Shown here: piece by piece, positions 4,401 to 41,578 of the stretch
Position numbering within the stretch: the first letter of the stretch is position 1
Layout of the letters: every line of letters starts with the position of its first letter
Source of the DNA: Arcobacter suis CECT 7833
Lineage (GTDB): Bacteria > Campylobacterota > Campylobacteria > Campylobacterales > Arcobacteraceae
Length of the DNA: 64,000 bases
Direction: 5' to 3'
Assembly: GCF_003544815.1 (NCBI RefSeq)
Contig: NZ_CP032100.1
Coordinates: forward strand, 992,001 to 1,056,000
Translations under genes and position numbers: made by a program
The notes under the pieces: generated by a model
Seen by the model: only the letters and a program-made list of their open reading frames with translations
Told to the model about the DNA's origin: nothing
The model's database searches: none

Positions 4401-6230
4401 TTAAACAAATAATCGTTTATCTTCAACTTTTTTTATATCTGAATAGTTATCTAAATAATCAAGATAAGTAATCAGATATTTTCTACTTAAATCAAATCTT
4501 TCTTTAAAGTTCGAAATACTAATAAATCCATCATTTTTTATTATTTCTCTCATAGTTTTTACTATTTTATTTAAACTTTCAAAATGAATAAATAAATTGT
4601 GTTGTAGTCTAATTACTTGTTTTTTTGAGGTTAATGATTTCAAAATATCATCACCTAATTTTCTATCAAGATCTAAATCATCATAGATATTATATGGAGC
4701 TGTTGGAGTTATATCTTCATCTTTTAATCTTTGTAAAACAATGATTTCTAAATCTTTTGCAAAATCTTCTTTGATATTAGCATTTTTATATAAAGATACA
4801 TCTCTAATTAAAAAATTCTCAATCTCTAATTCATCAAGTGCTAGTTGTATAAATGCACTACTTGCCCATTTTAATCGTAAGTTTATAGAAGCATTTGAAA
4901 GTAGGGCATAGTGATTTTTTGTGTAAATATCTTTTATAAAATCTTTTATAAAATCTTTTGTTGAAAATGGATAAATAATTAATTCTTTTTCATCTACAAA
5001 AACATTTTGTAGATTTTTTGCAAAGTTTATAGCTTCATCATGTGAAAGGGCAAATCTTTGAGTCGAAGAGATAATTCCTAAACCTTTTTTATGGGCTTCT
5101 AAAAGTTCTTCATATGCACTCCCAAAATCTTTTTTATCCAATGCTTCCAATAATTTTCTTTTTTGATTTTTTTTCATTGGATCAATAACAGGATTTAAAA
5201 TTTTCCCACCACAAATAGTTTCATTTGCATTTCTAAGTATTATTTTTTCGCCAAAAATTGTATATAGATTTTCATTGGCTTTTAAAGTTGCAAATCCTTC
5301 TTCAAGATTTGTTATACAATCAAAAAGTAAAACTTTTACTTCTACTTTTTTTGCTCCTACAAATAAAGTGTAGGTTTGATTGTGATTTAGTTTTTTCCCT
5401 TTTAGGCATTTAAAAGATATATCTATTCCATCAAATCCTCTAATATGACCTTTTTTTGTGATTAAATCACCTTTATTTATTTGAGATATATTCACACCTT
5501 GCAGATTTAAAGCAGCTCTTGAAGAGATATTTGCTTCAAGGGCATTTTGGTTGTGAACTTGAATATTTTTTATTTTTGTCTCTTTTTGATTTTGACAAAT
5601 AAAAACTTTTTCATCTAAATCACATTTTTTTCCAAGAACAGTTCCCGTTACAACAGTACCAATTCCTTTTGGAGAGAAAACTCTATCAACATAAAATCTA
5701 AAAAAGTTTTCTTCTTCTTTTGTACTATTATTTATAGAAAAAAGTTGATTTTTTAGTTTATTTATAGAATTTTCATCATAAATTGAAACTTCACTTATAA
5801 ACTTTATTTCAAAATCAAAATTTCCTAAAAATTCTAGAATTTCTTCTTTTTTTAATTCTAATTCTTCAATTGTTACTAAATCTTTTTTTGTTAGAACTAC
5901 AATAATTTCTTTTAATCCCAAAAGATTAATAATCTCAATATGTTCAACAGTTTGAGGTTTTATTCCCTCAGCAGCACTAATAACAAGCATCACATAATCA
6001 AATCCAAAAGCACCAGCAATCATGTATTTTACAAGTTTTTCATGTCCTGGAACATCAATAAAAGCAATATTTTGTTGACCTTTACTCATATTTGAAAAAG
6101 ATAAATCTATAGTTATTCCACGCTGTTTTTCTTCATTTGTAGTATCACCCTCAAAACCATTTAAAGCATGAATTAAAGCAGTTTTTCCATGGTCAATATG
6201 ACCTGCTGTTCCTATTATGATATTTGACAT
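4401..6230 (-). CDS. selB: Selenocysteine-specific elongation factor SelB
   Basis: GTPase that brings Sec-tRNA(Sec) to UGA codons followed by a SECIS hairpin. The G-domain motifs are clear: GHIDHGKTALI (residues 9-19), RGITIDLSF (about 38-46), DVPGHEK (about 59-65) and TKKDL (about 113). EF-Tu-like barrel domains follow, and the C-terminal third contains the winged-helix repeats that bind the SECIS RNA. At 609 residues it is full length for a bacterial SelB. Its ATG overlaps the selA stop by one base (TAATG), so selA and selB are translationally coupled. The nearby in-frame TGA codons in selD and fdhA are its expected targets. Confidence 0.97.
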   Translation of the reverse strand: MSNIIIGTAGHIDHGKTALIHALNGFEGDTTNEEKQRGITIDLSFSNMSKGQQNIAFIDVPGHEKLVKYMIAGAFGFDYVMLVISAAEGIKPQTVEHIEIINLLGLKEIIVVLTKKDLVTIEELELKKEEILEFLGNFDFEIKFISEVSIYDENSINKLKNQLFSINNSTKEEENFFRFYVDRVFSPKGIGTVVTGTVLGKKCDLDEKVFICQNQKETKIKNIQVHNQNALEANISSRAALNLQGVNISQINKGDLITKKGHIRGFDGIDISFKCLKGKKLNHNQTYTLFVGAKKVEVKVLLFDCITNLEEGFATLKANENLYTIFGEKIILRNANETICGGKILNPVIDPMKKNQKRKLLEALDKKDFGSAYEELLEAHKKGLGIISSTQRFALSHDEAINFAKNLQNVFVDEKELIIYPFSTKDFIKDFIKDIYTKNHYALLSNASINLRLKWASSAFIQLALDELEIENFLIRDVSLYKNANIKEDFAKDLEIIVLQRLKDEDITPTAPYNIYDDLDLDRKLGDDILKSLTSKKQVIRLQHNLFIHFESLNKIVKTMREIIKNDGFISISNFKERFDLSRKYLITYLDYLDNYSDIKKVEDKRLFV

Positions 6231-7585
6231 TAGTTTACACTTTCAAATATTTTTTTCAAGATATCAGCTATTTTTTCAATTTCATTTTCTTGTATAGTTC
6301 TAAAATCAAGAAGAATTTTTTCATTTTCTATTCTTGCTATTAGATTATTTTTTCTTAAAAGTTTTTCTATCTGATTTGGTTTGTACTTTTTATGTTCTAT
6401 TGTTAGTGCAATTGATGGAATTTTTTTATTTGGAGTAGTTCCTCCTCCAATTAAAGTTTGAGTTTTTATAACTTCACAAATACAAATATTTGCTACTTTT
6501 TCTAAAAGTTTAGAGGCTCTTTGTTCTAAAGTTTCTATTTTTGTATAAAGCATTTTTAAAGTAGGAATTTCATCAAGCTCATTTTTTAAATATGAATTTA
6601 GCGTATCTTCTAAAATACTAAGAGTTATTTTATCAACCCTTAACATTCTTAATAGTTGATTTTTTTTGATTTTTTCAATTAACTCTTTTTTTCCTATGAT
6701 AATTCCTGCTTGTACGCTTCCTAGAAGTTTATCTCCTGAAAAACTAAGAAGTGAAGGTTTATATTTCATGATTTCTAAAATAGAAGGTTCATTTGAAGAT
6801 AAATTAAAAGGTAAATCAATAATATGACCACTTCCCATATCATAGTAATCAATTATGTTGTTTTCTTTTGCCACTTTTACAATCTCTTCAAAATCAACTT
6901 CACTAGTAAATCCTTCAATTGAATAGTTTGATTTATGAACTTTCATAAGCATAGATGTTTTTTCATCTATAGCATTTTCATAATCTCTTAAATGAGTTTT
7001 ATTTGTAGTTCCAATCTCTTTTAATATAGCACCACTTTGGCTCATAACTTCAGGAACTCTAAAACTTCCACCAATTTCTACGAGTTCACCACGACTAACT
7101 ATTACTTCTTTATTTTTTGCAAAAGTATTTAAAATCAAAAAAACAGCACTTGCATTGTTATTTACTACAATAGCATCTTCGCAGTCTGTTAAATTTTGAA
7201 GAGTTTTTACAATGTGTGAGTATCTTTCTCCTCTTTTCCCTTCATTTAAGTCATATTCTAAGTTATTGTAAGAAGTTGCTATTTGAATAGCTTTTTCTAA
7301 ACTTTTTTTATTTATTAAACTTCTTCCAAAATTTGTATGCACAATAATTCCTGTTGCATTTATCAAAGTTTGTAAAGATGGAGTTGTGATTATTTCATAC
7401 TCTTTTAAAACATTTGAAACTAAGATATTTTCATCAATATTTTGAATTCTATTATTTAATATATCTTCTCGTAAATTTCCTATAATTTTTTTTGATATCT
7501 TAGTTATTAAACTTGTAGATAATCCTTCAAAAGCTTTGTGTGTGATAAACTTATCAACCTTTGGGATGGATTTTAGTAAAATCAT
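6230..7585 (-). CDS. selA: L-seryl-tRNA(Sec) selenium transferase SelA
   Basis: PLP enzyme that converts Ser-tRNA(Sec) to Sec-tRNA(Sec) using selenophosphate. The PLP-binding lysine lies in SFSGDKLLGSVQAG, and the N-terminal region has the typical INATGIIVHTNFGRS stretch. The frame is open further upstream to 7747, but those extra 54 codons are only the antisense of the tRNA-Sec gene. The ATG at 7585 is preceded by GAAAGGG at good spacing and gives 451 residues, the usual family length. It is followed by selB with a one-base overlap and is convergent with selC. Confidence 0.96.
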   Translation of the reverse strand: MILLKSIPKVDKFITHKAFEGLSTSLITKISKKIIGNLREDILNNRIQNIDENILVSNVLKEYEIITTPSLQTLINATGIIVHTNFGRSLINKKSLEKAIQIATSYNNLEYDLNEGKRGERYSHIVKTLQNLTDCEDAIVVNNNASAVFLILNTFAKNKEVIVSRGELVEIGGSFRVPEVMSQSGAILKEIGTTNKTHLRDYENAIDEKTSMLMKVHKSNYSIEGFTSEVDFEEIVKVAKENNIIDYYDMGSGHIIDLPFNLSSNEPSILEIMKYKPSLLSFSGDKLLGSVQAGIIIGKKELIEKIKKNQLLRMLRVDKITLSILEDTLNSYLKNELDEIPTLKMLYTKIETLEQRASKLLEKVANICICEVIKTQTLIGGGTTPNKKIPSIALTIEHKKYKPNQIEKLLRKNNLIARIENEKILLDFRTIQENEIEKIADILKKIFESVN

Positions 7586-7645
7586 TTTTACCCTTTCAGA
7601 TGTTTTTAAAATTGTTTGCTGTAGTATTTCTTTCTTACAAAAAAG

Positions 7646-7746
7646 TGGGAGACAAGTGTACCTGGTGGGCACCACAGGCTTCAACCCTGATTGACGGTTT
7701 ATGTGTAATACGCCGTGGGAGGTTCGATTCCTTCGTCTTCTCGCCA
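7646..7746 (+). tRNA. selC: tRNA-Sec (anticodon TCA)
   Basis: About 100 nt with the features of a bacterial selenocysteine tRNA. The anticodon loop CTTCAAC (7679-7685) carries TCA at 7681-7683 and is flanked by CAGG/CCTG. The T arm has stem GGAGG/CCTTC around TTCGATT (7718-7734). A long extra arm occupies about 7690-7716, and the 3' end is GCCA (7743-7746). The acceptor stem pairs 7647-7653 (GGGAGAC) with 7735-7741 (GTCTTCT), including two G-T wobbles. The outermost position (T7646 against C7742) does not pair, so the exact 5' end is uncertain by one base. This gene explains the false N-terminal extension of selA on the opposite strand. Confidence 0.93.
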
Positions 7747-7940
7747 CTTAAAAATCAAAAAATTATATCTTATTTCTAATACTACAAAGCTTAATTTAGG
7801 TAAAAAAGATTTTACTAAATTATCTTTTTGATTTAAAATAAATTATAAAAAATAATTTTGTTATAATAAGAAGTTTTTTAATGATTATATTTTGATAAAT
7901 AAAATAAATACAATTAAAGATTTAAATTTGAGGGAAAAAA

Positions 7941-8400: not shown

Positions 8401-8428
8401 AGGAAAAAGTTTTATCTTTTTCCTTTTT
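8401..8428. terminator. Bidirectional rho-independent terminator
   Basis: AGGAAAAAG (8401-8409), loop TTTTAT, CTTTTTCCT (8416-8424), then a T run. It sits four bases after the Sel1-repeat stop and touches the selD stop, so it can serve both convergent genes. Confidence 0.8.
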
Positions 8429-9464
8429 AATGAATGATTATTGGAGTTATACCTCTTGGAATTACATTTCCAATAATACTTGCATATCCAAATGATAATT
8501 CTTCTATTTCTTTTACATATTCAATAGCATCTTTTTCATCCATGGCAATTAGTAAACCACCTGATGTTTGTGCATCACAAAGTAGTGTTTTGCACTGCAT
8601 TGAAAGATTAGGCATATATGTGATTTTATCTTCCACATATTTGATATTTCTTTTTGTGCCACCAGGAACTATATCATTATTTGCTAATTCTATTGCTTCA
8701 TAAACTATTGGTACAGAACTACAATTTATACTAAAAGTTACAAGTTCATTTGTACACTCTAAAGCATGTCCCATAAGTCCAAACCCTGTGATATCTGTAC
8801 AAGAACTTACATCATATTTTCTCATTATTTTTGATGGTAAGTAGTTTAAACTTGCCATTATTTTTGCACAATCTTTGATGATATTTAAAGGCAATAAATC
8901 TCTTTTTATTGCCGTTGATAAAATTCCCATCCCAAGAGGTTTCGTCAAAACTAAAACATGCCCAATTTTTGGTCTATTATTTCTTATTATTTTATCTGGA
9001 TGAATCATTCCAGTTACTGATAATCCATAATACATTTCAGGAGATTCAATAGTATGACCACCTAATAAAACTCCACCACACTCTTTGATTTTTTCATTTC
9101 CACCATTTAAAATCAGACCTAAAGCCTCTTTTGATATATTTTTTTTATCAAAACCTAGTATATTCATGGCTGTTTTAACATCAGCTCCCATAGCAAAAAC
9201 ATCACTTAATGCATTTGCAGCAGCTATTTGTCCATAAACATACGGATCATCAACAACAGGTGTAATAAAATCAAGTGTTTGAACTATTGCTTGGTCTTCA
9301 TTTATTTGATAAACACTAGCATCTTCACTTGTATCAAAACCTACTAAAATTCTTTCATCGCTTGGAGTCAAACCGCAAATAGTTTGTTTAAGATCACCCG
9401 GACCCATTTTTGCAGCTCAACCAGCAGCTTGAACGAATTTTGTTAGTTTATATTCATTATTCAT
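8427..9464 (-). CDS. selD: Selenide, water dikinase SelD, itself a selenoprotein (Sec16)
   Basis: Makes selenophosphate, the selenium donor for SelA, from selenide and ATP. A plain stop-to-stop reading starts at 9407, but the real gene starts at ATG 9464 behind AAGGA. It reads MNNEYKLTKFVQAAG, then an in-frame TGA (9417-9419), then AAKMGPGDL. The TGA occupies the catalytic Cys/Sec position of the family, so residue 16 is selenocysteine. Full length is 345 residues, normal for SelD. Glycine- and aspartate-rich ATP motifs (GFDTSEDASVY, GHTIESPE, TDITGFGLMGH) are present. Decoding depends on selA, selB and selC just downstream, a self-dependent loop known from other SelD selenoproteins. Confidence 0.95.
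9391..9405 (-). promoter_or_regulatory. Candidate SECIS hairpin in selD
   Basis: On the selD strand, 11 bases after the TGA, GGGTC (9405-9401) and GATCT (9395-9391) pair (with two G-U pairs) around the 5-nt loop CGGGT. Bacterial SECIS elements lie at this distance and expose G and U residues in the loop for SelB. The stem is short, so this is plausible rather than proven. Confidence 0.6.
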
Positions 9465-35669: not shown

Positions 35670-36500
35670 TTAAATAGAGTTTTCTAATAAATTTTGATCT
35701 TTCATAGCTTTTGCTAGAACTTCATAACCTTCTAACTCTTTATTTGTAACTTTTACCCATTTATTAAGACCTTCCATAATCATCATTTTCTTGATAATAG
35801 GATTATTTGGGTCTTGTGATAACATCATGTTTGTAAAATTTTCACACATTTTTTCATCTGCATTTGGCATAACAGTAAAGTTACAATGGCAATATCCAGC
35901 ACTTGCATAAAAAGCTGTAATTTCACCTTCTGGAAATAATCCTTCTTCAATTATTCTAATCCACGTAGTACTTCCAATTGCTCCTGCGTCAATTTCATCT
36001 TTTAAGATAGCATCTAAAATATCAAATTCACTTTTTCCAGTATCTCCATGTTTACCCAAATCAGAATTAAATCTTACAAGTTTTAAATCTTTTAACGGAT
36101 TTAATCCTTCTTGTTTTAAAAATTCATAAGGTAAAATTGCGGCTTGGGCAGAATCTTTACTTCCTAAACCAAATCTTTTACCTTTTAAATCACTAATTGA
36201 ATTTATATTTTTATTTGTTTTTGCTATAAATATTGATTTAAAATCAATATCTGTATCTCTCATTAACAAAGCTTTCGCTTTATTTTGTGTTAAATGAAGC
36301 ATTCTAACCCAAGCAACATTTGTATTCCAAGCAACATCAATCATACCTTTATTTAAAGCTTCTACTTGAGCTTCATAGTTTGAAAAAAGAACATAGTCCA
36401 ATCTTAGATTGTTGTCGTTGTAATAATCTCTTATAATATCCCAAATAGGTACAACTTTCGCATCATATGCAACTGCACCTAACATAATAGTTTTTTTCAT
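35670..36500 (-). CDS. PhnD-like substrate-binding-fold protein without signal peptide
   Basis: 276 residues of the phosphate/phosphonate-binding PhnD type (type II binding-protein fold). Features are LGAVAYDAKVVPIWDIIRDYY, AQVEALNKGMIDVAWNTNVAW, SISDLKGKRFGLGSKDSAQA and DAGAIGSTTWIRIIEEG. Unlike transport proteins it has no signal peptide (MKKTIMLGAVAYD enters the fold directly), so it should be cytoplasmic and act as a carrier, enzyme accessory or sensor. It follows the flavoprotein gene by 15 bases in a three-gene operon and has no permease partner. The ligand is unknown. Confidence 0.8.
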   Translation of the reverse strand: MKKTIMLGAVAYDAKVVPIWDIIRDYYNDNNLRLDYVLFSNYEAQVEALNKGMIDVAWNTNVAWVRMLHLTQNKAKALLMRDTDIDFKSIFIAKTNKNINSISDLKGKRFGLGSKDSAQAAILPYEFLKQEGLNPLKDLKLVRFNSDLGKHGDTGKSEFDILDAILKDEIDAGAIGSTTWIRIIEEGLFPEGEITAFYASAGYCHCNFTVMPNADEKMCENFTNMMLSQDPNNPIIKKMMIMEGLNKWVKVTNKELEGYEVLAKAMKDQNLLENSI

Positions 36501-36515
36501 TTTTTTTCCTTGTTT

Positions 36516-37643
36516 TTATGGAATTTGTTGACCAGTTAAAGCTTTTCCTAACCAAATTGATAAAACATCAATACCTGGAGCCATAACTTGTGAAGCAAAA
36601 GAATCTCTTAATAATCTTTCAATTGGTAATCGTTTTGCATAAGCAGTTCCTCCACCAATTTTCATTGCTAAAGTACAAACTTCAATAGCTGCTATTGAGG
36701 CATTTATTCTTGCAGAAATAATTTGTGCTAAAGCATCTTCTTGCATATTTAACCCCGCATTTGCACCTGCTAGAGTAAAATGTTTTGCACTTTGAGCTTT
36801 GATATAAATTGTTGCTAAATCATTTTGTACCGTTGGAATTTCACTTAAACTTCCACTATTAGTATATTTTCTTCCCATAGAGTGATTTTTTATAATTTCA
36901 CAAGCATTAAGAGCAACTCCACTGTAAACAGCTGCAAGTCCAATTACAAAAAATGGAGCAACAACTGTAAATACTTGTTCTGCTCCACTTCCTTCAACTC
37001 CCACTCTATCACTTTCATTTACAACTACATTATTTAAATTCATAGGCATAGAAGCATTTCCTCTCATCCCTAATCCATCCCATGCTTGATTGTGAAATTC
37101 TAATCCTTGAGAATTTTTTGAAATTAACCAGTTGTTTAATCCATCTTTGTTGATTGTTTGAGATAAAACTAAATAATAATCCACAAAACCAGCAGAAGTT
37201 ACAAAACTTTTTTTACCGTTTAATACAAACTTTTCATCTTTTTGTGAAAAAGTAATTTCAGGTTGATAAAAGTGAGTTCCTGTTCCTGTTTCACTATAAG
37301 CTAAAGCAAGAGTTATTTCTCCCTTTGCAATTTTTGGTAATAATTTGTCTTTTAACTCTTTTGAACCATGGCTTACTATACACATAGTTGCTACATTATG
37401 CATCATATAACATAATGCTGTTGTAGCACAACTTTGAGCAAGGGCTAATATAGTTTGTGTATGTTCAAGTATAGTTAAACCTTTTCCTCCATATTCAATT
37501 GGAACTACTAATCCCATATAACCATTTTCTTTTAATGCATTAAAACTTTTTTCAGGAAATTGTGCATTTAAATCAGCATCCAAACTATTACATTCAATTT
37601 TTTCTTTAGCAAAAGAAAATGTATTTTCATATATATTTTTCAT
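36516..37643 (-). CDS. Acyl-CoA-dehydrogenase-like flavoprotein, possibly monooxygenase type
   Basis: 375 residues from ATG 37643, with GAGGA upstream. Typical acyl-CoA dehydrogenase segments are FPEKSFNALKENGYMGLVVP, ALAYSETGTGTHFY, KSFVTSAGFVDYYLV and LRDSFASQVMAPGIDVLSIW. In ordinary family members the last region reads YEGTSEIQ and holds a catalytic Glu; here it reads MAPGID, so that base is absent. This is the pattern of the family's oxygenase-like or non-CoA branches (SfnB/DszC-like), which is inference. It starts eight bases after the TusA-ferritin gene stop and precedes the PhnD-like gene. Confidence 0.82.
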   Translation of the reverse strand: MKNIYENTFSFAKEKIECNSLDADLNAQFPEKSFNALKENGYMGLVVPIEYGGKGLTILEHTQTILALAQSCATTALCYMMHNVATMCIVSHGSKELKDKLLPKIAKGEITLALAYSETGTGTHFYQPEITFSQKDEKFVLNGKKSFVTSAGFVDYYLVLSQTINKDGLNNWLISKNSQGLEFHNQAWDGLGMRGNASMPMNLNNVVVNESDRVGVEGSGAEQVFTVVAPFFVIGLAAVYSGVALNACEIIKNHSMGRKYTNSGSLSEIPTVQNDLATIYIKAQSAKHFTLAGANAGLNMQEDALAQIISARINASIAAIEVCTLAMKIGGGTAYAKRLPIERLLRDSFASQVMAPGIDVLSIWLGKALTGQQIP

Positions 37644-37650
37644 TAAGTCC

Positions 37651-38907
37651 TCACATAAAATTTGGTGTATGTACTTTAGAAATATCAATTGCTAAATCTT
37701 CATCTATTCCAATTTCTATTAATCTTTTTACTCTATTTTTATCCATTCTACTTTTTAAGTCAACAACAGCATCGTAACCTTTTTTATAACTTGAAATAGA
37801 ACAATCTCCTCCAGCTAATGTTGCAAGTGCTTCTAAAAGAAGAGTAGATTCACCATTTAGTTCATCCATAAATTCTTTTCTTTTAAAAGCAGTATCTTTT
37901 AGCATATTTATTTTTTTTGGATTTTGTTCTAAAACAGATTTTAAATGAGCCATTCCATAAGCCACATGCCTTGTTTCATCTTGTCTAACATATTTTAAAA
38001 TCTTTTTTGTAGCATTATCAGGCATATAATTTTCAAGAAATTTAAGTAAATCAATAAATGTTCCTTCTCCCATAACATGAAGTAAAAAAGAAGATTTTAC
38101 GTAGTCTTGTTCCATAAAAAGTGAATACAATGATCTTTGAGTTACATTTGAAGAGTATTGTATTCCTCCTGAATTTGCATTAACTCTTTTTGTAAAAACT
38201 TCTATATGTCTTGCTTCATCGTTCATTAAAGAACCTAAAAATAGGGGAATTTCCATATAATATGGATTCATTTGTGAAATAAATTTTCCAGGAATATATA
38301 ATGCTGAGAATTCATTTTCAATTAAATAAGTCATTATTTGACAAATAGCTTGTTCAAATTTTGGTTCAAAAGTAGGAATTTCATTCCATAAAATATCAGA
38401 AGTTGCATTCCATTGGGAATTTTTTGCATCTTCGTATAATTTAGCAACAGGTTGAGCCCATAATTGCTCTTTATGATTTAGTGAGAAATTATATTGAATA
38501 GTCCCATTCTCAATGACTGTATCTCTTCCCATTAAACCATGATTTATAGGAGCTTTTGTTTCTATTGAGTTTTCTTCAAAATTCCAGTTAGAAACTTTTG
38601 GATTATTTGTATTTATTCCATCCATAGTAAATCCAAAATTTGCTTCTTTATTGTAAGCAGATTTTTTACAATTTAATATTTTGTATGAAAATTGATTTTT
38701 TAAAACAAGTTTTTCTAAAAGTTTATATCCTTTTAGATTACACCAGCTTTGTAGTTCAAATTCAATCTTCTCATTTGTTGAAATAAGTTCAAGAATTTCA
38801 TTCTCTTTTACAAATAATAAGGCATTTTCAAGTTTCAGAAATAGAGCTTTGCCTATTGGTAAATTACCAATAAATAAAGAGTTAGAGTGAAGATTTGTAT
38901 TTTGCAT
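37651..38907 (-). CDS. TusA-like/ferritin-like diiron fusion protein
   Basis: 418 residues. The N-terminal 75 residues fit a TusA/SirA-like fold: LFIGNLPIGKALFLKLENAL, then IEFELQSWCNLKGYKLLEK. The CPxP sulfur-carrier cysteine is missing from NLPIGK, although a cysteine lies in SWCNLKG. The C-terminal part (about 190-370) has two diiron half-sites, NDEARHIEVF and RQDETRHVAYG, with upstream Glu candidates (YLIENEFSALY, MGEGTFIDLL), as in ferritin-like oxygenases. It is the first gene of an operon with a flavoprotein and a PhnD-like protein. The function is unknown; an oxygenase acting on an S- or N-containing compound is a reasonable guess. Confidence 0.72.
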   Translation of the reverse strand: MQNTNLHSNSLFIGNLPIGKALFLKLENALLFVKENEILELISTNEKIEFELQSWCNLKGYKLLEKLVLKNQFSYKILNCKKSAYNKEANFGFTMDGINTNNPKVSNWNFEENSIETKAPINHGLMGRDTVIENGTIQYNFSLNHKEQLWAQPVAKLYEDAKNSQWNATSDILWNEIPTFEPKFEQAICQIMTYLIENEFSALYIPGKFISQMNPYYMEIPLFLGSLMNDEARHIEVFTKRVNANSGGIQYSSNVTQRSLYSLFMEQDYVKSSFLLHVMGEGTFIDLLKFLENYMPDNATKKILKYVRQDETRHVAYGMAHLKSVLEQNPKKINMLKDTAFKRKEFMDELNGESTLLLEALATLAGGDCSISSYKKGYDAVVDLKSRMDKNRVKRLIEIGIDEDLAIDISKVHTPNFM

Positions 38908-39054
38908 ATACTATAATATTCCAAAGTATTTGAAATAACATCTTTTAAGCATTTTATACTTAAGATGAGTACCTATTCCATAGGTCTAAGAGTAAGATTC
39001 TAACTAAAACAAAATAAGTTTTGATTTAAAAGGTAAAATATATTTTACTTTTTA
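38908..39054. promoter_or_regulatory. Control region of the TusA-ferritin operon
   Basis: Contains a perfect inverted repeat ACCTAT-TCC-ATAGGT (38971-38985) and, further upstream, the 16-bp palindrome GTAAAATATATTTTAC (39033-39048). The palindrome resembles the arms of the repeat before the fdh locus. Both are candidate operators; no function is proven. Confidence 0.5.
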
Positions 39055-39952: not shown

Positions 39953-41578
39953 TTAATTTTTATAAAAAGCCAATTTTTTAACTTCAAGTTTATCAAACAT
40001 TGATAACATATTGTAATAATCTTTATGTAAAGTTCTATTTATTAAAAAGCCATTACCTTCAAGAACATCAACTGCTTTTTGGATTTTTTCTTTTCCATAA
40101 ACATTATTTAAAGCTGTTTCATACTCTTCCCATACAAGTTCATCATTTTGCATTCTGATTAATTGAGCTACTAAATGACCAAATTTATTATTTCCAAACT
40201 CTAAAATCTCTAAAGCATCATTATACTCTTCTAAAAGAAGTAACATTTGAGCTTTAAAATCTCCCATTGTGAAGTTTTCTTCAAAAATAACACCAATATA
40301 AAGTTGCATATTTAAAGAATCATCTAAACTATCAAGAGTGTCTAAAATTTCGTTTGTATCGTATTTTTCAAAGTTTAAAACCATATCTCGGATAAGTTTT
40401 CCATTGTTTTTGTTGTTGTAAACCATATCATCAAGTGGATAAACTTCTGAGAAATTTGGAACAATCATTTGACAAGAATAAAAGTCTAAATATGTATATT
40501 CTCTTACATACATTTCTCTATTTTGAGAGTTTAAAATATCAAGTAAAAATGCGTATTCATCATCACTTCCATTCCCTTCATATTTCCAAGGAGCATATTC
40601 AAAACTTTTTTTAGCACTTAAAAATGGGAAACCTAATTTTCCATTTGAATCAATAAAGTGAGCTTCTAAGTTAAAACTATCAGCTACTAAACTCATATCA
40701 AAAGTAGGAATTTCAAAGGCATCAAGATTTGTTAAATCTCTTCCTTGCATAAGTTCAGTCATAGTTCGCTCAAGACTTACTTCTAAAATAGGGTGCGCTC
40801 CAAAAGATACAAATAAAGTATTGTTTTTAGTGTTTATAAGTGAAATTGCAGTTACAGGGAAAACTCCACCTAAAGATGCATCTAAAATCTCGATTATGTA
40901 ACCTAAATCCCTTAAAGTTTGAGCATCTTTGTAAACTTTTGGAAATGATTTTACAACTTCTTCTGGAAACTGTGGAAGTGCATAACCTTCTTTGATAATT
41001 GCAATTTTTGCGTATCTTTCAAAGATTTCACTTAATGCTTGAACTTTTGCTTCATTTGCTGTGTTTCCAGTTGCAAGTCCGTTACTTACAAAAAGATTAC
41101 TTAAAATATTTATTGGGATATATGTTTTTTCTTTTGTTGATTCTTTGATGAATGGTAAAGCTACGATTTTGTCCATGTAATCGCTATTGAAATCTACTAA
41201 ATCTTTATCTTCAAGTTCACCATCTGCACTATAAATCTTTTTTAATTCAGGATTTAAATAATCTCCTCCAAAATCAAAAGCAACTTCATCTGGATAATAT
41301 TTTCTATTTGGTAAATGGAAATCTATAAAAAAGTTGTTAGTTTGTAATCTTTCGATGTATTCTCCATAAGCACTTGCTATTGAAGCGTCTGAGATTGTTC
41401 CTTTTCCATTTGAATAGATATGATTTGGTGCTTCATTTGAAGCTAAGTTTACTGAGAAGCAGTTTTCTAAAGGGTGTTTTTCTTGTGAAAATGAGGCTTC
41501 ACAACCAACATCTTTTAATACAGCTTTCATTTTATTAATTGATTGTTCTACGGGGCTATTTTTTGATAATAAATTCAT
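39953..41578 (-). CDS. ycaO: YcaO-family protein (E. coli YcaO type)
   Basis: 541 residues, the same general length as E. coli YcaO (586). YcaO enzymes activate amide oxygens with ATP. The genomic E. coli-type member supports the RimO-catalysed methylthiolation of ribosomal protein S12. ATP-binding residues are in ASIASAYGEYIERLQTNNFF and ALSEIFERYAKIA, and the middle has SFGAHPILEVSLERTMTELM. The C-terminal 180 residues form the TPR-like tail typical of this subgroup (LLEEYNDALEILEFGNNK). No azoline peptide precursor is seen nearby, so a bacteriocin role is unlikely. Confidence 0.85.
   Translation of the reverse strand: MNLLSKNSPVEQSINKMKAVLKDVGCEASFSQEKHPLENCFSVNLASNEAPNHIYSNGKGTISDASIASAYGEYIERLQTNNFFIDFHLPNRKYYPDEVAFDFGGDYLNPELKKIYSADGELEDKDLVDFNSDYMDKIVALPFIKESTKEKTYIPINILSNLFVSNGLATGNTANEAKVQALSEIFERYAKIAIIKEGYALPQFPEEVVKSFPKVYKDAQTLRDLGYIIEILDASLGGVFPVTAISLINTKNNTLFVSFGAHPILEVSLERTMTELMQGRDLTNLDAFEIPTFDMSLVADSFNLEAHFIDSNGKLGFPFLSAKKSFEYAPWKYEGNGSDDEYAFLLDILNSQNREMYVREYTYLDFYSCQMIVPNFSEVYPLDDMVYNNKNNGKLIRDMVLNFEKYDTNEILDTLDSLDDSLNMQLYIGVIFEENFTMGDFKAQMLLLLEEYNDALEILEFGNNKFGHLVAQLIRMQNDELVWEEYETALNNVYGKEKIQKAVDVLEGNGFLINRTLHKDYYNMLSMFDKLEVKKLAFYKN

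Follow-up and report, generated by a model that had tools for sequence, protein, structure and literature searches.

A co-conserved three-gene operon of Arcobacter suis with a leader hairpin and a tentative link to selenium

We analysed a stretch of 64,000 nt from Arcobacter suis CECT 7833 (NZ_CP032100.1, positions 992,001 to 1,056,000 of the forward strand; hereafter the window), in which three same-strand open reading frames (ORFs) at 35670-38907 on the minus strand, separated by gaps of 7 and 15 bases, form one operon, the “trio”. An earlier note, made from the DNA sequence alone, had described its products as a TusA-ferritin fusion, a flavoprotein and a cytoplasmic substrate-binding protein (SBP), and had matched their combination to no known pathway; our follow-up matched it to none either. 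The leader of the operon carries a hairpin resembling the selenocysteine insertion sequence (SECIS) of selD genes, which suggests a new, unproven link between the trio and selenium.

Genes of the trio and their products

The first gene (37651-38907, minus strand) encodes a protein of 418 aa, TUSF, with the two DExRH motifs expected from the earlier description of a diiron-type protein. In Pfam, the window protein reaches 22.7 of 28.6 bits for TusA and 30.6 of 34.3 bits for DUF455, both below the cut-off; among 25 family members, DUF455 is matched by 25, AurF by 18 and TusA by 8. The N-terminus is TusA-like in sequence only: the CPxP cysteine of TusA sulfurtransferases occurs in 0/31 rows with letters at this site. 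Because this cysteine is missing, the TusA-like part cannot carry sulfur in the usual way, and that role was dropped.

The rest of TUSF aligns weakly (E 1e-4) with PDB 4hr0 and its relatives, whose deposited name is ribonucleotide reductase small subunit and which we take to be Geobacillus R2lox (R2-like ligand-binding oxidase). The NCBIfam R2lox profile matches TUSF with E 1.6e-10 and 40.7 bits, below its curated cut-off of 194 bits. Judged by these alignments, R2lox rather than a simple ferritin is the closest relative of the diiron part; of the fusion described earlier, the two-part build is retained while “TusA” lacks its cysteine and “ferritin” gives way to an R2lox-like part. The positions of the putative diiron ligands (E, ExxH, E, ExxH) are occupied by E197, E199, H234, E281, E311 and H314 in 32/32 sequences and by E231 in 31/32 (K in the remaining one), and the first ligand could be either E197 or E199. 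The Val of the Tyr-Val cross-link of R2lox aligns with S201, and L276 stands five residues before E281, in an alignment that is possibly one residue off. The C-terminal HTxNFM motif is invariant (with P in 32/33), as if this tail docked on a partner. No internal stop codon interrupts the TUSF matches of 35 genomes, so TUSF contains no selenocysteine (Sec) codon.

The second gene (36516-37643, minus strand) encodes a flavoprotein of 375 aa with the acyl-CoA-dehydrogenase fold (ACAD), a relative of Rv1679/FadE16; the mechanical ORF begins at a TTG at 37688, upstream of 37643, without support from homologues. Its A355 aligns with the Glu of the YEGTSE motif in 5ol2, presumably the catalytic Glu. 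Alanine replaces this residue in 20/20 sequences, and M354-A355-P356 is invariant in the same 20, which bears out the description of a flavoprotein devoid of the usual catalytic Glu.

The product of the third gene (35670-36500, minus strand; 276 aa), a relative of Rv1680 with the motifs RDTD, GSxDSAQA, GKHGDTGxSE and CHCNF, is the SBP. It is PhnD-like by Pfam (2.3e-26) and also gives an NMT1/THI5-like Pfam match (E 5e-8), while the profiles TIGR04553 (putative selenate-binding), TIGR01098 and TIGR03431 (PhnD) score 93, 63 and 49 bits, all below cut-off. No signal-peptide-like stretch was found by eye (no signal-peptide program was used), and the sequence begins directly in the fold, in agreement with the cytosolic location suggested before. 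In most rows, xDSAQ or xDSPQ takes the place of the S-T-S anion loop of PhnD; the H-C within CHCNF or DHCxF is invariant. Since the S-T-S loop is not kept, the role of a phosphonate or sulfonate carrier, also raised earlier, is doubtful; the protein may have been repurposed, perhaps as a catalyst.

Distribution and relatives of the cassette

Matches to TUSF were obtained in 36/298 Campylobacterota genomes, of which 35 were accepted; the match in G028, which spans 84 residues at 24% identity and contains two stops, was taken as spurious, and that in G242 is a fragment only. Gene order was compared in 32 further loci, comprising wide regions from 30/35 TUSF genomes (the window being one more) and two other records (L026 and L027, of which L027 is truncated at its start). 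In 31/32 of these loci, TUSF, ACAD and SBP are consecutive, in the same order and on the same strand, the exception being a decayed remnant in G242 (L055). This co-conservation means that the trio is more than a chance neighbourhood, as its description as an operon had implied. In the genomes represented by no wide region (G106, G127, G014 and G181), the distance between the matches to TUSF and SBP would accommodate ACAD. The SBP is present in 35/35 TUSF genomes and in 5 more of the 298 that have no TUSF, and a search of the A. suis genome (2.64 Mb) gave no second TUSF copy. Clustering of neighbours revealed no fourth constant gene, the other neighbours varying between genomes. The pairwise distances of the three proteins correlate (r 0.89, 0.85 and 0.65; 32 sequences), for which shared descent alone could suffice. 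Open-licence PMC papers, consulted as listings, included no apparent functional study of the trio cassette and no tested enzyme function for any of its members.

The nearest NCBIfam families of ACAD and SBP are Rv1679/FadE16 (NF049984) and Rv1680 (NF049985) of Mycobacterium tuberculosis. With 267 of 600 bits and 315 of 400 bits, respectively, both proteins stay below the cut-offs and are relatives rather than members. A pair of this type accompanies an Rv1678-like gene on a Rhodococcus plasmid, and Rv1678-like and Rv1681-like (radical SAM) genes on a Mycolicibacterium plasmid. The latter region (L060, 3336-12261) also encodes a deiodinase-like protein, a glutaredoxin, an MFS protein, CcdA and a disulfide oxidoreductase beside the Rv1678- to Rv1681-like genes. 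On a Miltoncostaea plasmid, selA and selD lie about 6 kb from an ACAD-SBP pair; this region (L061, 1-18747) carries, in addition, DoxX, two radical SAM genes and relatives of arsenosugar-type glycosyltransferases, and its pair belongs to the sister type (WNSP/DHC).

This sister type is represented in five Campylobacterota genomes (L065, L066, L067, L068 and L069; the L067 copy is broken) by a cassette of ACAD, SBP, core MetE and an OsmC-like gene, with no diiron gene. The core MetE keeps the zinc motifs HxC and NPDC in 4/4 intact copies. Full-length MetE is also encoded in four of these genomes (G063, G257, G290 and G167) and in 9/9 trio genomes tested, while MetH was found among the five only in G167; G141 has neither another MetE nor MetH. 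AlphaFold models built from three-sequence alignments had a mean pLDDT of 39.6 for both, too low to use.

The leader hairpin and the selenium genes

The 147-base gap upstream of TUSF holds, on the minus strand, a probable -10 element TTAGAAT (38997-39003, read from the sequence) and, 11 bases after it, the hairpin ACCTA-TGGAA-TAGGT (38971-38985), which is SECIS-like in its 5-bp stem and its 5-nt loop of the form NGKNN. A similar -10-like element precedes many homologous leaders. We searched 37 leaders (33 of trio and 4 of sister cassettes, some of them nearly identical) for 5-bp stems with 5-nt loops, the loop length being fixed by the search. A hairpin with the loop NGKNH was found in 34/37 leaders versus 37/411 upstream regions of control ORFs from the same loci, and 200 single-base shuffles of the leaders gave a mean of 2.8 of 37 and a maximum of 9. 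The loops AGGNT or CGTGN occur in 28/37 leaders (counted by eye) versus 9/411 controls. One leader, L053, passes via a probably accidental hairpin and has CTTTCA-GGAT-TGAAAG at the expected place. Among the sister leaders, 3/4 carry a hairpin starting 35-36 bases before the start, with the loop AGGTT or GGGTC. In the Arcobacteraceae-type leaders (L070-L081), two more hairpins are predicted after the first one, the last touching the Shine-Dalgarno-like GGAG; no covariation was seen in them.

The element is closely tied to the trio. Exact leader patterns were found in 12/104 genomes of the window's family and in 5/121 of another family, and 17/17 sites precede TUSF. A covariance model, R1, built from nine leaders chosen by exact pattern, matches 21/104 genomes at E <= 0.001, and 20 of these matches precede TUSF. 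The remaining one, in G187, a genome without TUSF, lies ahead of an operon for formate dehydrogenase; there, the well-kept leader (L092, 7001-7110; L092/L104) is followed by genes for an Fe-S protein, a TorD-like protein and formate dehydrogenase. We rejected it as a member of a wider regulon, as G187 has no TUSF and the sequence that follows the leader looks like a lost TUSF start; it is probably a deletion scar and possibly a new control of the formate dehydrogenase genes. A permissive search added eight weaker matches (E 0.003 to 0.48), of which the one in G187 (E 0.003, L097) lies inside an ORF and was dropped. No Rfam family matched at its gathering threshold in 6 sources; for the window leader only two unrelated matches appeared (E 0.78 and 2.8), and two other leaders gave none at E up to 2.

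For comparison, we collected 35 selD genes that contain a UGA in frame; of these, 26 belong to genomes with the cassette and 9 to relatives without it. Each of them (35/35) has a SECIS with a stem of 4-7 bp and a 5-nt NGKNN loop (the loop length was fixed at five), and in each the hairpin begins 19 bases downstream of the first UGA base. According to PMC1794560, the loop of bacterial SECIS elements has a conserved G. Thus, the leader hairpins and the selD SECIS elements of these clades are alike in shape (34/37 leaders and 35/35 selD). In G133 (L047), selD is the immediate upstream neighbour of the trio.

The window itself encodes a selenocysteine system. On the minus strand lie a selenoprotein form of selD (8427-9464, start read by eye; in-frame UGA at 9419-9417) with its SECIS hairpin GGGTC-CGGGT-GATCT (9391-9405, coordinates counted by eye), the gene selA for Sec synthase (6230-7585), and selB for the Sec-specific elongation factor (4401-6230; TIGR00475, E 9.8e-81); the tRNA-Sec gene (7647-7742, ARAGORN) is on the plus strand. 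The first Met of selA, at 7585, is its likely start, while the mechanical ORF (TIGR00474, E 1e-168 on 6230-7747) extends to 7747 and overlaps tRNA-Sec. A weak hairpin with two G-U pairs, TTTTT-TGTAA-GAAAG (7630-7644, minus strand), starts 59 bases before selA and overlaps neither selA nor tRNA-Sec; its TGTAA loop also occurs in some trio leaders. This could be another SECIS-like leader, or else a chance hairpin, since about 9% of the control upstream regions hold one of this kind.

A YcaO gene (S12 methylthiotransferase accessory-like) at 39953-41578 lies upstream and shares the strand of the trio. For YcaO and for the DUF302, DUF2721 and ROF-like neighbours of the window, none of the 32 further loci has a match close to the trio.

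A selenium reading, its rivals and known systems

The SECIS-like leader, taken together with the selenium genes, is an unproven pointer to selenium. The interpretation in the earlier note finds partial support; the sulfur-carrier and phosphonate ideas find none. We propose, with a probability of a little over one in three, that an oxygenase cassette for scavenging or handling selenium is under the control of a SECIS-like leader that responds to SelB. SelB with GTP and Sec-tRNA(Sec) would bind the hairpin of the trio mRNA and lower its translation when selenium is plentiful, and the operon would be made when selenium is short. The SBP would hold a small selenium compound, probably an organic or methylated one, which the flavoprotein and the diiron protein would oxidise or demethylate, and the released selenium would pass to SelD. 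Demethylation is plausible because the sister cassette, which has no diiron protein, contains a zinc methyltransferase (core MetE), together with OsmC, in that position. In favour of the proposal count the co-conservation of the three genes, the cassette-specific leader hairpins and their likeness in shape to the selD SECIS, the similar hairpins before sister cassettes, the sel genes of the window, the proximity of selD to the trio in L047 and of selA and selD to the ACAD-SBP pair in L061, the occurrence of selD in 40/40 cassette genomes, and an SBP score that is higher for the putative selenate-binding profile than for TIGR01098 or PhnD.

The complete version of this proposal is a good deal less probable and should be seen as unlikely: a new selenium-acquisition system in which an R2lox-like diiron oxygenase, an ACAD-fold flavoprotein lacking the base and a repurposed cytosolic SBP supply SelD with selenium freed from an organic (methylated) compound, the system being turned on at selenium shortage through the SelB-sensed leader, with Rv1679-Rv1680 as the core of a wider family having exchangeable third components. 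If the selenium proposal is true, control by SelB would extend beyond the selenocysteine genes to a metabolic operon, bacteria would possess an oxygen-dependent route to selenium of which we have seen no description, and both the Rv1679-Rv1680 pair and an R2lox-type protein would receive their first functional lead.

Several results weigh against the selenium proposal. The NGK loop pattern was set post hoc, after the leaders had been viewed, and three leaders fail it: L034 and L069, with no clear element, and L057, with a 4-bp stem and a CGTGT loop. The stems differ between families; they were found by requiring pairing and are therefore not independent proof, and the nine-leader alignment contains 0 pairs changed on both sides. 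R1 matches the leaders of 4/21 sources tried, the window's own not among them. Coding, too, shapes the loops of selD. Agreement of loop letters genome by genome had been set as a test beforehand and came out negative: the leader and selD loops of the same genome are identical in 0/20 cases and share their first three letters in 1/20, and the sole selD with the loop CGTGT belongs to a genome without the cassette (G134). This weakens the SECIS-like interpretation without removing it. Presence of selD does not discriminate either, since it was found in 40/40 cassette genomes and also in 17/19 relatives without the cassette. In the 40 cassette loci, a search for SelA, SelB and SelD gave matches only at L047 and L061. 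M. tuberculosis, which is not known to have selD, retains Rv1679-Rv1680; SelD can therefore not be a general requirement of this pair.

An alternative that we consider equally probable, and that is close to the reading in the earlier note, is that the trio oxidises a small S, N or C compound unrelated to selenium and that the hairpin is bound by another RNA- or DNA-binding regulator. An ACAD fold without its Glu beside a diiron protein would suit such a reaction, OsmC and MetE of the sister cassette fit thiol chemistry, and the Rv1678-like and Rv1681-like radical SAM context of the mycobacterial plasmid agrees with it, as does the failure of leader and selD loop letters ever to match within a genome. 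Against it speak the shape that the leader hairpins share with the SECIS of selD in these clades and the adjacency of selD and trio in L047.

The same leader evidence, with a TUSF free of Sec codons, could also be explained by a selenium-sparing substitute, in which an O2/metal/flavin system replaces a selenoprotein at low Sec-tRNA under the SECIS-like leader. We think this improbable, as no selenoprotein of matching function is known to us in these bacteria, no search aimed at one having been made, and an SBP suits substrate handling better. Similarly improbable is that ACAD and SBP are an oxygen-dependent methyl supplier for a core methionine synthase, the diiron protein replacing the methyltransferase in the trio. 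The ACAD-SBP-core MetE-OsmC operon with its HxC and NPDC motifs and the absence of other MetE or MetH from G141 speak for such a supplier, as does a parallel with MesD, a core methionine synthase which requires MesX and oxygen according to PMC7857596. The presence of full-length MetE in 9/9 trio and 4/5 sister genomes tested and the lack of a methyltransferase in the trio argue against it. Very improbable, and dropped because ThiC is present in 35/35 TUSF genomes, is a THI5-like thiamin-pyrimidine synthase, to which the NMT1/THI5-like Pfam match and the conserved CHCNF, with its CHC presumably near the position of the THI5 CCCFC, had drawn attention; Lys62 and His66 of THI5 seem not to be kept in the SBP. 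Both residues are used by THI5 according to PMC10848271.

The proposal of selenium control through SelB has its closest parallel in E. coli. There, SelB with GTP and Sec-tRNA(Sec) binds a SECIS-like element in the selAB leader and lowers translation at high selenium. Autoregulation of E. coli SelB is mentioned in PMC8124441. The trio resembles selAB in having a short hairpin in its 5' leader and differs in that this hairpin precedes a non-sel operon, that binding by SelB is putative, and that selA of the window has a weak candidate only.

The individual proteins also depart from their known counterparts. TUSF shares with R2lox the aligned LYE.AK..WN and DEA(K/R)H(V/I)E.F stretches and the carboxylate/His positions, whereas its TusA-like N-terminus and HTxNFM C-terminus are additions, the cross-link residues are not evident, and the profile match is weak (E 1e-4); we know of no reaction assigned to proteins of the R2lox family. 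Acyl-CoA dehydrogenases use the catalytic Glu of YEGTSE, which the ACAD of the trio lacks. The SBP has the fold and the RDxD motif in common with PhnD-type and putative selenate SBPs (TIGR03431 and TIGR04553), from which it is set apart by the lack of a signal peptide as judged by eye, an operon without ABC transporter genes, the replaced S-T-S loop, and the CHC or DHC motif.

At the level of gene sets, the sister cassette resembles MesD/MesX, as outlined in PMC7857596, by having a core MetE devoid of the folate domain next to uncharacterised partners that may be redox proteins; in contrast to that system, the partners are ACAD and SBP instead of DUF1852, and OsmC is added. The trio as a whole resembles Rv1679-Rv1680, whose ACAD-fold and SBP-fold relatives are adjacent and in the same order on the plasmids of Rhodococcus, Mycolicibacterium and Miltoncostaea, where Rv1678-like and, in Mycolicibacterium, Rv1681-like genes stand in place of the TusA/R2lox fusion.

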